Under the pieces are notes generated by a model. It saw only the letters and a program-made list of their open reading frames with translations, ran no database searches and was not told the origin of the DNA. From positions 1 to 33,932 of the forward strand of contig CALUYU010000025.1 of assembly GCA_944325075.1 (NCBI GenBank): a stretch of DNA of 33,932 nucleotides, given 5' to 3'. Position numbers and translations under genes: made by a program. This DNA comes from Candidatus Gastranaerophilales bacterium (lineage in GTDB: Bacteria; Cyanobacteriota; Vampirovibrionia; Gastranaerophilales; Gastranaerophilaceae). Of the stretch, positions 1-33,932 are shown piece after piece (position 1 is the first letter of the stretch; the number at the start of each line of letters is the position of its first letter).

Positions 1-98
1 TGTGAGAGATAGCACCGGTACAATTCAAACAATTATTTTAAATTGTATTTGAATGCGAGCGGTCGGATAAGCAAGCCGGGATTAAGTAGCGCAGTTTG

Positions 99-140
99 AC
101 TCTGCCGAACAAAAACAATTGAGTATTGTTTTTGTGAGAG
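99..140 (+). repeat. D-loop hairpin element, Pro-array copy 1
   Basis: The ends are ACTCTGCCGAAC and GTGAGAG. They enclose a 9-bp stem (CAAAAACAA/TTGTTTTTG) with a 7-nt loop, TTGAGTA. The outer CTCT and AGAG can pair around an internal loop. The element sits exactly where the D-loop of the tRNA-Pro 5' fragment would continue. An identical copy lies at 231-272, and the same element recurs on the minus strand near the right end of the window with a slightly different but fully paired stem. Confidence 0.85.
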
Positions 141-230
141 ATAGCACCGGTACAATTCAAACAATTATTTTAAATTGTATTTGAATGCGAGCGGTCGGAT
201 AAGCAAGCCATGGCAAAGTAGCGCAGTTTG

Positions 231-272
231 ACTCTGCCGAACAAAAACAATTGAGTATTGTTTTTGTGAGAG
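231..272 (+). repeat. D-loop hairpin element, Pro-array copy 2
   Basis: Second copy, identical to the one at 99-140. It lies between a GTAGCGCAGTTTG fragment and GTAGCAC. The next unit downstream is the intact tRNA-Pro, whose D-loop has no insertion. Confidence 0.85.
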
Positions 273-317
273 GTAGCACTGGTGCGCTTCAAACAACTTA
301 CTCTTAAATTTCTATCT

Positions 318-391
318 CGGAATGTAGCGCAGTTTGGTAGCGCACCGTGTTCGGGTCGCGGGGGTCGCAGGTTCAAATCCTGTCATTCCGA
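318..391 (+). tRNA. tRNA-Pro (anticodon CGG)
   Basis: A full 74-nt cloverleaf can be drawn. The acceptor stem is CGGAATG/CATTCCG with discriminator A. The D-stem is GCGC/GCGC with loop AGTTTGGTA. The anticodon stem is CCGTG/CGCGG with loop TTCGGGT, giving anticodon CGG. The T-arm is GCAGG-TTCAAAT-CCTGT. The 3' CCA is not encoded, since the gene is followed by TTTTTTAATG, so a CCA-adding enzyme is required. The last 19 bases overlap the 3' end of the convergent cca gene. The upstream tandem array carries copies of its 5' D-arm. Confidence 0.93.
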
Positions 392-1818
392 TTTTTTAAT
401 GCAAAATTTTTAATAAACTCAATGGCCTGCTCTTTAGTCATAACGTCACCGTTTAATTGAGCTTCATGTAAAGCTTTTAAAATATTCCCAAGCATTGGCC
501 CCTGCTTAATATTAAGAATATCAATAACCTCATTTCCATCAAGAAGTTTTGGCAACGGCTTCAACTCTTCAATGGAATTAAAGTAGAGCGCAAGCAGGCG
601 ATCAAGATTATTGAGATTGTGAGCGATAATCTCATCAGTAATAAGCTCCCCTCTGGCAGATAATCTATCAGCTTTAGCAAGAATAATATTATCAATAACG
701 TTGTCACCAAGCTTCCTGAGATAGCGCATCATCGCTTTTTCATTAACATTTGGATCCTGCATGAGGCAGGAAGGATAAATATGGTTTTTAATCATCTCTG
801 AAATATAGCCAATCTGTTTGTTTGAACAAGAAAGATCTTTTAAAATCGGCTTAACAAGTTTTGCCCCGACATCATCGTGCTTAATAAAGCGGTGACGCCC
901 GGTATCTTTGTCAATAGTCCAGGTAGAAAACTTTCCGATATCATGCAAAAAACCGGCAAATTTTAAATGCGCCAGACGTGAAAATCCACCAAAATCAATT
1001 CTGTTAAGATGAGTTTGTATTAACTCATCAGCTTCATCGTACAAAATTTGAATCTGATTAACAGTTTCAATACTGTGATGTAAAAGATCAAGATGGTGAT
1101 GTGAATTAGGCGGAACCTGTTTTAATTCAAGAACAACCGGAAAAATTTCCTCAAGCAGCCAAGTTTTATTCATATTCAAAAGAGCTTTTGCAGAATATTT
1201 TCCGTCAAAAAGTTTCATAAGTTCATATAGTATCCGTTCTTTGGCGGGCCTTTTAATCAAACCGGAGTACTTGCAAACTGCGTTAATAGTTTCGGGACTA
1301 AGCTCAAAACCCAATGCGGCCTGAAATCTGTAGACTCTTAACAGTCTTAGCGGATCATCAACAAAGTTATTTTCATCAATATAATCAAGATTTTTGTTTT
1401 TAATATCAGCAATGCCGCCGCATAAGTCAATGACCTCGCCGGATCTAATATTAACTGCAATTGAATTAATAGTTAAATCACGACGCATTAAGTCTCTTTC
1501 AAGGGAATTTTCAATAGGATTGGTAATATCAATAATTTCGGGATTATGCTTGGAAAGACCATCTTTCAGCACAATTCTATAAATCTTATTTTCTTCATCA
1601 AGAGGAACAAAAGCAGAATTAAATAATTCATGAACCTTTAGTGCAAATTCTCTGGCATCCATTCCAACAATAATCAGATCTCTATCCAAAGGACTTTTGC
1701 CCATATAATAGTCCCTAACAGTCCCGCCAACAGCATAAATATCCTTATCAGAAAATTGAGCGGCAATTCGGGAAAGAATTTTATCAGATTTAATTTTTGA
1801 AAGAATTGTAGTATTCAT
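373..1818 (-). CDS. cca: CCA tRNA nucleotidyltransferase / poly(A) polymerase family, HD-domain type
   Basis: A 481-aa class II nucleotidyltransferase. It is expected to add or repair the 3' CCA of tRNAs, or possibly one part of it, since some bacteria split the activity between two enzymes. The GG-x-VRD motif is at residues 31-36 and the metal-binding D-R-D at about 45-47. The motif RRDLTINSIA, near residue 113, is typical of the head/neck region. A C-terminal HD domain has FLHDIGK near residue 290, as in bacterial CCA/phosphohydrolase forms. The start overlaps the end of rsmE by 29 bp, so the two are probably co-transcribed. The stop lies within the opposing tRNA-Pro gene, whose transcript would itself be a substrate because no CCA is encoded. 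The family call is firm; CC- versus A-adding specificity cannot be settled here. Confidence 0.93.
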   Translation of the reverse strand: MNTTILSKIKSDKILSRIAAQFSDKDIYAVGGTVRDYYMGKSPLDRDLIIVGMDAREFALKVHELFNSAFVPLDEENKIYRIVLKDGLSKHNPEIIDITNPIENSLERDLMRRDLTINSIAVNIRSGEVIDLCGGIADIKNKNLDYIDENNFVDDPLRLLRVYRFQAALGFELSPETINAVCKYSGLIKRPAKERILYELMKLFDGKYSAKALLNMNKTWLLEEIFPVVLELKQVPPNSHHHLDLLHHSIETVNQIQILYDEADELIQTHLNRIDFGGFSRLAHLKFAGFLHDIGKFSTWTIDKDTGRHRFIKHDDVGAKLVKPILKDLSCSNKQIGYISEMIKNHIYPSCLMQDPNVNEKAMMRYLRKLGDNVIDNIILAKADRLSARGELITDEIIAHNLNNLDRLLALYFNSIEELKPLPKLLDGNEVIDILNIKQGPMLGNILKALHEAQLNGDVMTKEQAIEFIKNFALKNRNDRI

Positions 1819-33556: not shown

Positions 33557-33638
33557 TGGTGGGCATGAAGAGATTCGAACTCCCACGCGTTAGCACTAGT
33601 TCCTAAGACTAGCGTGTCTACCATTCCACCACATGCCC
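33557..33638 (-). tRNA. tRNA-Leu (anticodon UAG)
   Basis: Read on the minus strand: acceptor stem GGGCATG/CATGCCC, discriminator A and an encoded CCA (33557-33559). The D-arm is GTG..CAC with GG at 18/19. The anticodon stem is CTAGT/ACTAG with loop CTTAGGA (anticodon TAG). The variable arm is 11-12 nt and the T-arm has loop TTCGAAT. The long variable arm confirms a class II tRNA. The encoded CCA contrasts with tRNA-Pro at the other end of the window. Its upstream side carries an array of copies of its own 5' part. Confidence 0.92.
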
Positions 33639-33684
33639 ACATATTCGATTGTCAAATCTTTCAGATTTGAGGCGTGTCTACCAC

Positions 33685-33724
33685 CTCTCACAAAACGATA
33701 TTCAATCGTTTTGTTCGGCAGAGT
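33685..33724 (-). repeat. D-loop hairpin element, Leu-array copy 1
   Basis: In minus-strand sense the ends are ACTCTGCCGAAC and GTGAGAG, with an 8-bp stem CAAAACGA/TCGTTTTG. The loop is TTGAATA here and TTGAGTA in the other two Leu copies. Those copies lie at 33782-33821 and 33879-33918. Relative to the Pro-array copies, one A-T pair is missing and another is replaced by G-C, so pairing is preserved. Confidence 0.85.
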
Positions 33725-33781
33725 ACCACATGCCCACATATTCGATTGTCAAATCTTCCAGATTTGAGGCGTGTCTACCAC

Positions 33782-33821
33782 CTCTCACAAAACGATACTC
33801 AATCGTTTTGTTCGGCAGAGT
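33782..33821 (-). repeat. D-loop hairpin element, Leu-array copy 2
   Basis: Same 40-nt element as at 33685-33724 but with loop TTGAGTA. It interrupts the D-loop of the second tRNA-Leu 5' fragment. Confidence 0.85.
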
Positions 33822-33878
33822 ACCACATGCCCACATATTCGATTGTCAAATCTTTCAGATTTGAGGCGTGTCTACCAC

Positions 33879-33918
33879 CTCTCACAAAACGATACTCAAT
33901 CGTTTTGTTCGGCAGAGT
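33879..33918 (-). repeat. D-loop hairpin element, Leu-array copy 3
   Basis: Same element as the copy at 33782-33821, followed by the start of a further tRNA-Leu 5' fragment at the window edge. Confidence 0.85.
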
Positions 33919-33932
33919 ACCACATGCCCACA

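Follow-up and report, generated by a model that had tools for sequence, protein, structure and literature searches.

The small dispersed repeats (SDRs) of Nostoc are reportedly very short, 21–27 nt in size, and scattered through the genome; they are said to occur inside one another as well as inside other repeats, and to share a common fold with compensatory changes; their mobiliser is reportedly unknown. The rtT-type repeats at tyrT of E. coli are said to consist of tandem units with tRNA 3' ends located after the gene. SDRs of Nostoc and relatives are cited in PMC3116915. REP and REPIN sequences form systems with RAYT proteins (PMC3733652, PMC3116915), and REPs carry a GTAG (or CGTC) tag at their end (PMC3733652). 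The palindromic elements YPAL/RU-2 and RPE measure 105–168 bp. YPAL is associated with target duplications of variable length (3–26 bp) at or adjoining dyad symmetry, while RPE has entered the RNA genes for tmRNA and M1 RNA (PMC2229807).

Arrays upstream of two tRNA genes

The window, the whole stretch of 33,932 nt analysed here, contains two intact tRNA genes near its ends, tRNA-Pro(CGG) and tRNA-Leu(TAG), with a tandem array upstream of each. Every array unit comprises a truncated start of the neighbouring tRNA, and a hairpin element of 41–43 nt (n = 5) is located in its D-arm. The following features were annotated.

1–310, plus strand: tandem array upstream of tRNA-Pro, 132-bp period (Tandem Repeats Finder: 2.3 copies, score 525)
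1–9, plus strand: tail of one more hairpin element (TGTGAGAGA), truncated at the edge of the contig; its 3' end is that of the copies ending at 140 and 272
86–98, plus strand: truncated 5' tRNA-Pro copy (GTAGCGCAGTTTG), the left flank, named T; its letters recur in the intact tRNA-Pro at 317–392
99–140, plus strand: element copy 1, with CTCT/AGAG outer helix, GCCGA internal loop, covarying stem and TGAGT loop (match of covariance model R1 at 99–141, E-value 5.4e-13)
218–230, plus strand: truncated 5' tRNA-Pro copy of the second unit
231–273, plus strand: element copy 2 (231–272) plus the next G (match of covariance model R1, E-value 2.2e-14)
317–392, plus strand: intact tRNA-Pro (CGG) (ARAGORN and Rfam RF00005, 61.2 bits)
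33557–33638, minus strand: intact tRNA-Leu (TAG) (ARAGORN and Rfam RF00005, 58.6 bits)
33628–33932, minus strand: tandem array upstream of tRNA-Leu, 97-bp period (Tandem Repeats Finder: 3.1 copies, 98% matches)
33684–33724, minus strand: element copy nearest to tRNA-Leu, loop TTGAATA (E-value 2.4e-15)
33781–33821, minus strand: element, middle Leu copy (E-value 8.6e-16)
33878–33918, minus strand: element, outer Leu copy (E-value 8.6e-16)
33725–33738, 33822–33835 and 33919–33932, minus strand: truncated 5' tRNA-Leu copies (TGTGGGCATGTGGT), with letters matching the start of the intact tRNA-Leu region
33846–33864, minus strand: second hairpin in the Leu unit (TCAAATCT-GAA-AGATTTGA), seen in the sequence as a local fold-back that varies between species at the same place; taken to lie outside the putative mobile element

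A preliminary description of this DNA had recognized five copies of a shared element. The copies are real; ACTCTGCCGAAC is exact in 5/5. Allowing up to two mismatches, this sequence has 5 matches against 1.2 expected by shuffling, a number reached in 1/100 shuffles. The heptamer TTGAGTA alone is uninformative (10 found, 4.8 expected). The whole element lies far beyond chance, with E-values of about 1e-13 to 1e-16 for a covariance model that had the window copies among its training sequences, and its folding z-score is about -3.5. The stems of the Pro and Leu copies differ as had been claimed (AAAAACAA/TTGTTTTT versus AAAACGA/TCGTTTT). The loop, described as constant, is shared as TTGAGTA, but one Leu copy has TTGAATA, and the base following the copy at 99–140 is an A, not a G. 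Copies that share an array duplicate each other almost exactly; the five represent only two independent stems, and the case for covariation therefore depends on a wider set. Rfam matched tRNAs alone in the window at gathering score; in a search of positions 1–330 up to an E-value of 1, no match was obtained for the element.

The contig starts and ends within the arrays. Two other contigs of this assembly, C64 and C2, also terminate in them, the latter in the initial unit of an array of the same type. Arrays of tRNA stumps thus break assemblies in this gut lineage, as at both ends of the window's contig. Convergent with tRNA-Pro, on the minus strand, are the genes for a PolyA_pol/HD-domain tRNA nucleotidyltransferase-like protein (373–1818), whose listed 3' end overlaps the tRNA, and for an RNA methyltransferase of the Methyltrans_RNA family (1790–2542). 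In relatives, dusB is located upstream of the Pro array; RNA-modification genes cluster at the tRNA-Pro locus.

Fold and covariation

The consensus is ACTCT-GCCGA-AC-stem-T[AG]AGT-stem-GT-GAGAGG, in an element family of about 39–47 nt. The invariant ends, ACTCTGCCGA and GAGAGG, define the end-pattern class. In the first 15 distinct copies, 193/193 cells are paired and five pairs change on both sides; pairing drops from 100% to 47–66% when the partners are slid. A larger set, chosen by the ends and not by the stem, comprised 45 distinct 41-nt elements with 450 stem cells and about 40 different 5' stem arms. Changes on both sides affect 62 of these cells, changes on one side 9 (G-U), and 10 are broken. 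The compensatory stem change, initially proposed from the window copies, is thereby confirmed as strong covariation across the 45 elements: stem breaks as frequent as pair-preserving changes did not appear, with 62 double changes standing against 10 broken cells. Since the covariation is strong and slid partners lose pairing, the sequence is shaped by the folding of one strand. The preliminary description took stem changes of this kind to imply selection on a folded strand, which goes too far. Folding matters, but hairpin-templated repair could keep the palindromes perfect without selection.

The ends, also considered constant, are so within one class; the outer helix shows no variation in the main class, as it was a requirement of the search. 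In sister hairpins located at sites of the same type, the outer helix is CTCC/GGAG or ACCC/GGGT, and most of these hairpins contain the T[AG]AGT loop. As the sister classes vary the ends and retain the loop, the common feature of the wider family is the loop and not the ends. A kink-turn formed by the GCCGA/GA internal loop is a guess. The motif GCCGAAC resembles the R box of attC; an attC-like site was dropped as a candidate, for the 3' side GTGAGAG fails to pair as an R' box would.

Occurrence in genomes

The end pattern is present in 13 copies in the window's genome, and a reversed-pattern control gave 0. A covariance model built from 15 distinct copies found 20 matches in this genome, matches in 13/13 genomes of the genus and matches in 257/286 Gastranaerophilales genomes, many of them with at least 20 copies and many with at least about 22. 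In a sample of the phylum, 146/339 genomes had matches, all within Gastranaerophilales among the matches listed. No match was obtained in seven genomes from a different family of this class, nor in the remaining phylum members listed; 173 further matchless genomes are known as a count only. A scan of named genomes with the end pattern, whose counts are a sample among the matches listed, gave almost exclusively Candidatus Gastranaerophilales, Melainabacteria or gut bacteria. Matches in Dehalococcoidia, Chloroflexi and Propionibacteriaceae were rejected, as they have no stem. The end-pattern scan of IMG/VR yielded 31 matches, taken as chance; six were inspected and showed no matching stem, and the inspected 50-nt matches share one stretch, coding in appearance. 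As far as searched, the element family is confined to Gastranaerophilales. The genome data are mostly MAGs, and loci of related genomes are not independent. The literature search found no description of such an element in Gastranaerophilales.

Position relative to tRNA and tmRNA genes

Among the 147 copies listed for the sample of named genomes, 69 are located no more than 400 nt from a tRNA or tmRNA gene, compared to 8 of 1112 control positions at the same loci. Read along the strand of the element, the gene follows downstream in 66 of these 69 listed cases, 47 of them sense and 19 antisense. The sister class E2 is placed likewise (7/7). The left flank of the element is repeated downstream without the element for 76/181 copies, the right flank upstream for 4/181. 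Given this position of the gene and the recurrence of the left flank downstream, with the right flank rarely found upstream, the layout is 5'-T-element-X-T-gene. T, the gene's outer end, is duplicated and has a median length of 21 nt (range 12 to >50). X, of about 45 nt and mostly local sequence, is located between the element and the second T. It opens with a brief duplicate of the native letters that follow T (score 14.7 versus 9.4 ± 0.4 for shuffled sequences), after which a local fold-back is often present. In a sample biased to element-bearing loci, 60 tRNA genes have truncated 5' copies that without exception bear the element, and 10 have such copies lacking it, several of the latter carrying sister or degenerate hairpins; for 3' tRNA ends of the same sample, 13 have the element and 23 other inserts or copies. 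As far as the literature searched shows, the tie to tRNA ends with a fixed polarity is undescribed.

Other inserts were seen at such sites. Truncated tRNA 3' copies harbor a second kind of insert in antisense, (G/C)TCTTG..TCGCTCGCGTTAAACGG followed by a long hairpin, at the loci L069, L149, L178, L350 (G000 C79), L361 and others. Another antisense insert in tRNA 3' copies is GTAGGCGA..GAGCCGTACG. For the inserts in tRNA 3' copies, tRNA was the sole Rfam match. At L265 and L293, the intact tmRNA has beside it truncated copies of its 5' end that contain different structured inserts; at L293, a borderline Rfam match to permuted tmRNA overlaps the standard tmRNA match. At L305, the tRNA-Pro of G001, the element's interior between ACTC and GAGAGG is swapped for an unrelated palindrome.

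Occurrence within other repeats

In genomes G126 and G063, the element replaces the small loop of a dispersed GTCATCCTGAG...GAAGGATC palindrome: the empty form is GAGC-AAA-GCGAAGG, the filled form GAGC-element-GGCGAAGG. It is located within a CCCTCCC palindrome in G040, and copies are also adjacent to or nested in other copies (L061, L065). The flanks are mutually more complementary than shuffled ones in windows of 20–30 nt. The effect is modest, so placement of the hairpin in the loop of another is no more than a tendency. Three levels of nesting are present at L155–L173 (G126, G063), with the element in a palindrome GTCAT..GAAGAATC and the palindrome in a dispersed repeat TATAGCAAATTCC...GGAATTTGCTATA. 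A dispersed palindromic repeat, GCGGATTTGC...AGTCCGGATAGCGAGGAAATTGAGC...GAGCAAATCCAAGAC, has the element near its 5' end and is perhaps partly inside reading frames (L056 on G000 C22, L063, L210, L215, L276 and L283).

Signs of movement

An empty site exists in G007, where dusB (Dus by Pfam) is followed by tRNA-Pro without a unit. The same site carries one to three units with different elements in most other members of the genus, and in sister species the element is found at two different points of the tRNA-Pro D-arm. Many identical copies are present on different contigs of G040 and G126. They ride in larger repeats, and these may have moved instead. Within the genus, the elements that a genome carries at its different tRNAs resemble one another no more than expected: 80/300 label permutations reach the observed likeness, so that no recent burst from a single source or master copy is visible. 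Elements at the same tRNA in different species have a likeness of 0.668, compared to 0.642 for others, and do not clearly appear related by descent. Altogether, the evidence for movement fits a quick turnover and falls short of proof.

Origin of the element

The element is probably a very small (about 39–47 nt) non-autonomous mobile hairpin of Gastranaerophilales, inserted with fixed polarity and with duplication of T. This reading builds on the observed fold, spread, polarity, duplication and loop replacement. In the proposed mechanism, a trans-acting enzyme would recognize the folded single strand, either RNA or ssDNA, by its loop and ends. The 3' end of a nicked target, T, would be joined to the element or would copy it. 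Synthesis would then return to the start of T, which would duplicate the gene end and leave a working tRNA. This return alone would explain why the order is fixed, why T varies, why X is local and why the gene is intact. Because interrupting a lone tRNA gene would do harm, the insertions that survive would be those that bring the duplication. Repetition of the whole unit would afterwards build up tandem arrays like those of the window. A history in two steps, with the stump formed first and the element arriving later, is possible; alone it is insufficient because 5' stumps nearly always bear such a hairpin.

The preliminary description suggested a transposase of the REP-associated type as partner, a suggestion that found no support. 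Y1 transposase genes (PF01797) occur in 98/286 genomes and were not detected in the element-rich G005, G040, G063 and G126. In the fetched flanks, an element is near 4/30 Y1 loci and absent near 26/30. That a Y1 (RAYT/IS200) transposase moves a REP-like element is hence very unlikely, despite the short imperfect hairpin in many copies and one strong Y1 gene in the window's genome (G000 C73): besides this distribution, the GTAG tag is absent from the inside of the element. GTAG sometimes follows it, as tRNA D-loop sequence. A reverse transcriptase partner was rejected; RVT_1 is present in 110 genomes of the order and does not track the element. The element-rich G005, G040 and G126 are among the genomes matched for neither family, and the Y1 and RVT_1 searches of 286 genomes found no mobilising gene. 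On G005 C3, a test for an element-bounded gene showed an ORF of 322 aa between two element copies. The element's orientation has no bias with respect to GC skew (50:48) or coding strand (49:49), thus giving no hint of ssDNA at replication forks.

Alternatively, the units may be produced together with the tRNA precursor and serve as leader or decoy RNAs, the hairpin being a protein-binding arm under RNA selection, in which GCCGA/GA could form a kink-turn-like tandem G-A motif. The covarying stem, the constant internal loop and the mostly constant apical loop agree with a working RNA, as do units upstream of the same tRNAs in many members of the genus. This explanation is nevertheless unlikely, given that 19/66 downstream cases are antisense to the tRNA, that many copies reside in unrelated repeats distant from tRNAs, and that the Pro unit is missing from G007. 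Across species, elements at the same tRNA are hardly more alike than others (0.668 versus 0.642), and Rfam gave no match up to an E-value of 1. A purely mutational origin would need no movement at all: slippage and fold-back would duplicate tRNA ends, and hairpin-templated repair (quasi-palindrome correction) would perfect the stems and create the covariation. Template switching predicts the native-sequence copy at the start of X (14.7 versus 9.4 shuffled) and the local fold-backs, and double changes with few intermediates fit such repair. The identical ends of 10 and 6 nt and the loop at unrelated loci in many genomes would be left unexplained, as would the loop replacement in other repeats; moreover, most duplicated 5' tRNA stumps bear the element (60 versus 10 in the element-biased sample). 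A passive palindrome is improbable for these reasons. Finally, the truncated tRNA copies could be att sites of former islands integrated by a tyrosine integrase or a Cas1-like integrase. Partial and intact genes on either side of a tRNA and the long duplications T would be expected from such remnants. The inserts consist of just the element and about 45 nt of mostly local sequence, with no integrase-bearing insert, elements are found away from tRNAs too, and T varies from 12 to >50 nt in length, which makes an island origin highly improbable.

The mobile hairpin thus preferred may, as a tentative extension, represent a superfamily of hairpins of about 40 nt, whose ends are exchangeable and whose T[A/G]AGT loop is shared, a mobile element of its own. 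Its movement as a folded single strand would involve a kind of enzyme new to mobile DNA, and entry into tRNA and tmRNA genes with fixed polarity and end duplication would render it harmless in essential genes. If the mobile reading is true, the element is among the smallest mobile elements known and a case of an element inhabiting tRNA and tmRNA genes through duplication of the gene end. Hundreds of natural copies would then be available for asking whether such elements move as RNA or ssDNA. A clear search is offered as well, for a gene family that tracks the element number across several hundred related genomes.

Comparison with known elements

With regard to bacterial MITEs, the duplication T seen at tRNAs is of variable length (median 21 nt), and no parent transposon was found. 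Like REPs and REPINs, the element is a short imperfect palindrome in many tandem and dispersed copies; in contrast to the REP/RAYT systems, it has no GTAG/CGTC tag, is not regularly flanked by Y1 genes and is not tracked by them. With YPAL it shares variable target duplications near dyad symmetry, and with RPE the location in RNA gene sequence. It differs from YPAL/RU-2 and RPE in its size of about 40 nt, its freely covarying stem and its position in duplicated stumps, the real RNA gene staying intact. The window resembles rtT in having tandem units with a tRNA piece beside a tRNA gene, whereas the units here have no Rfam match and carry an inserted hairpin. The likeness to SDRs is one of general description: the element is also dispersed and nested, with compensatory changes in a shared fold, and both occur in the cyanobacterial phylum. 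Unlike SDRs, it is 39–47 nt long, is tied in a fixed polarity to the ends of tRNA and tmRNA genes, which are duplicated, and was here found in Gastranaerophilales only.
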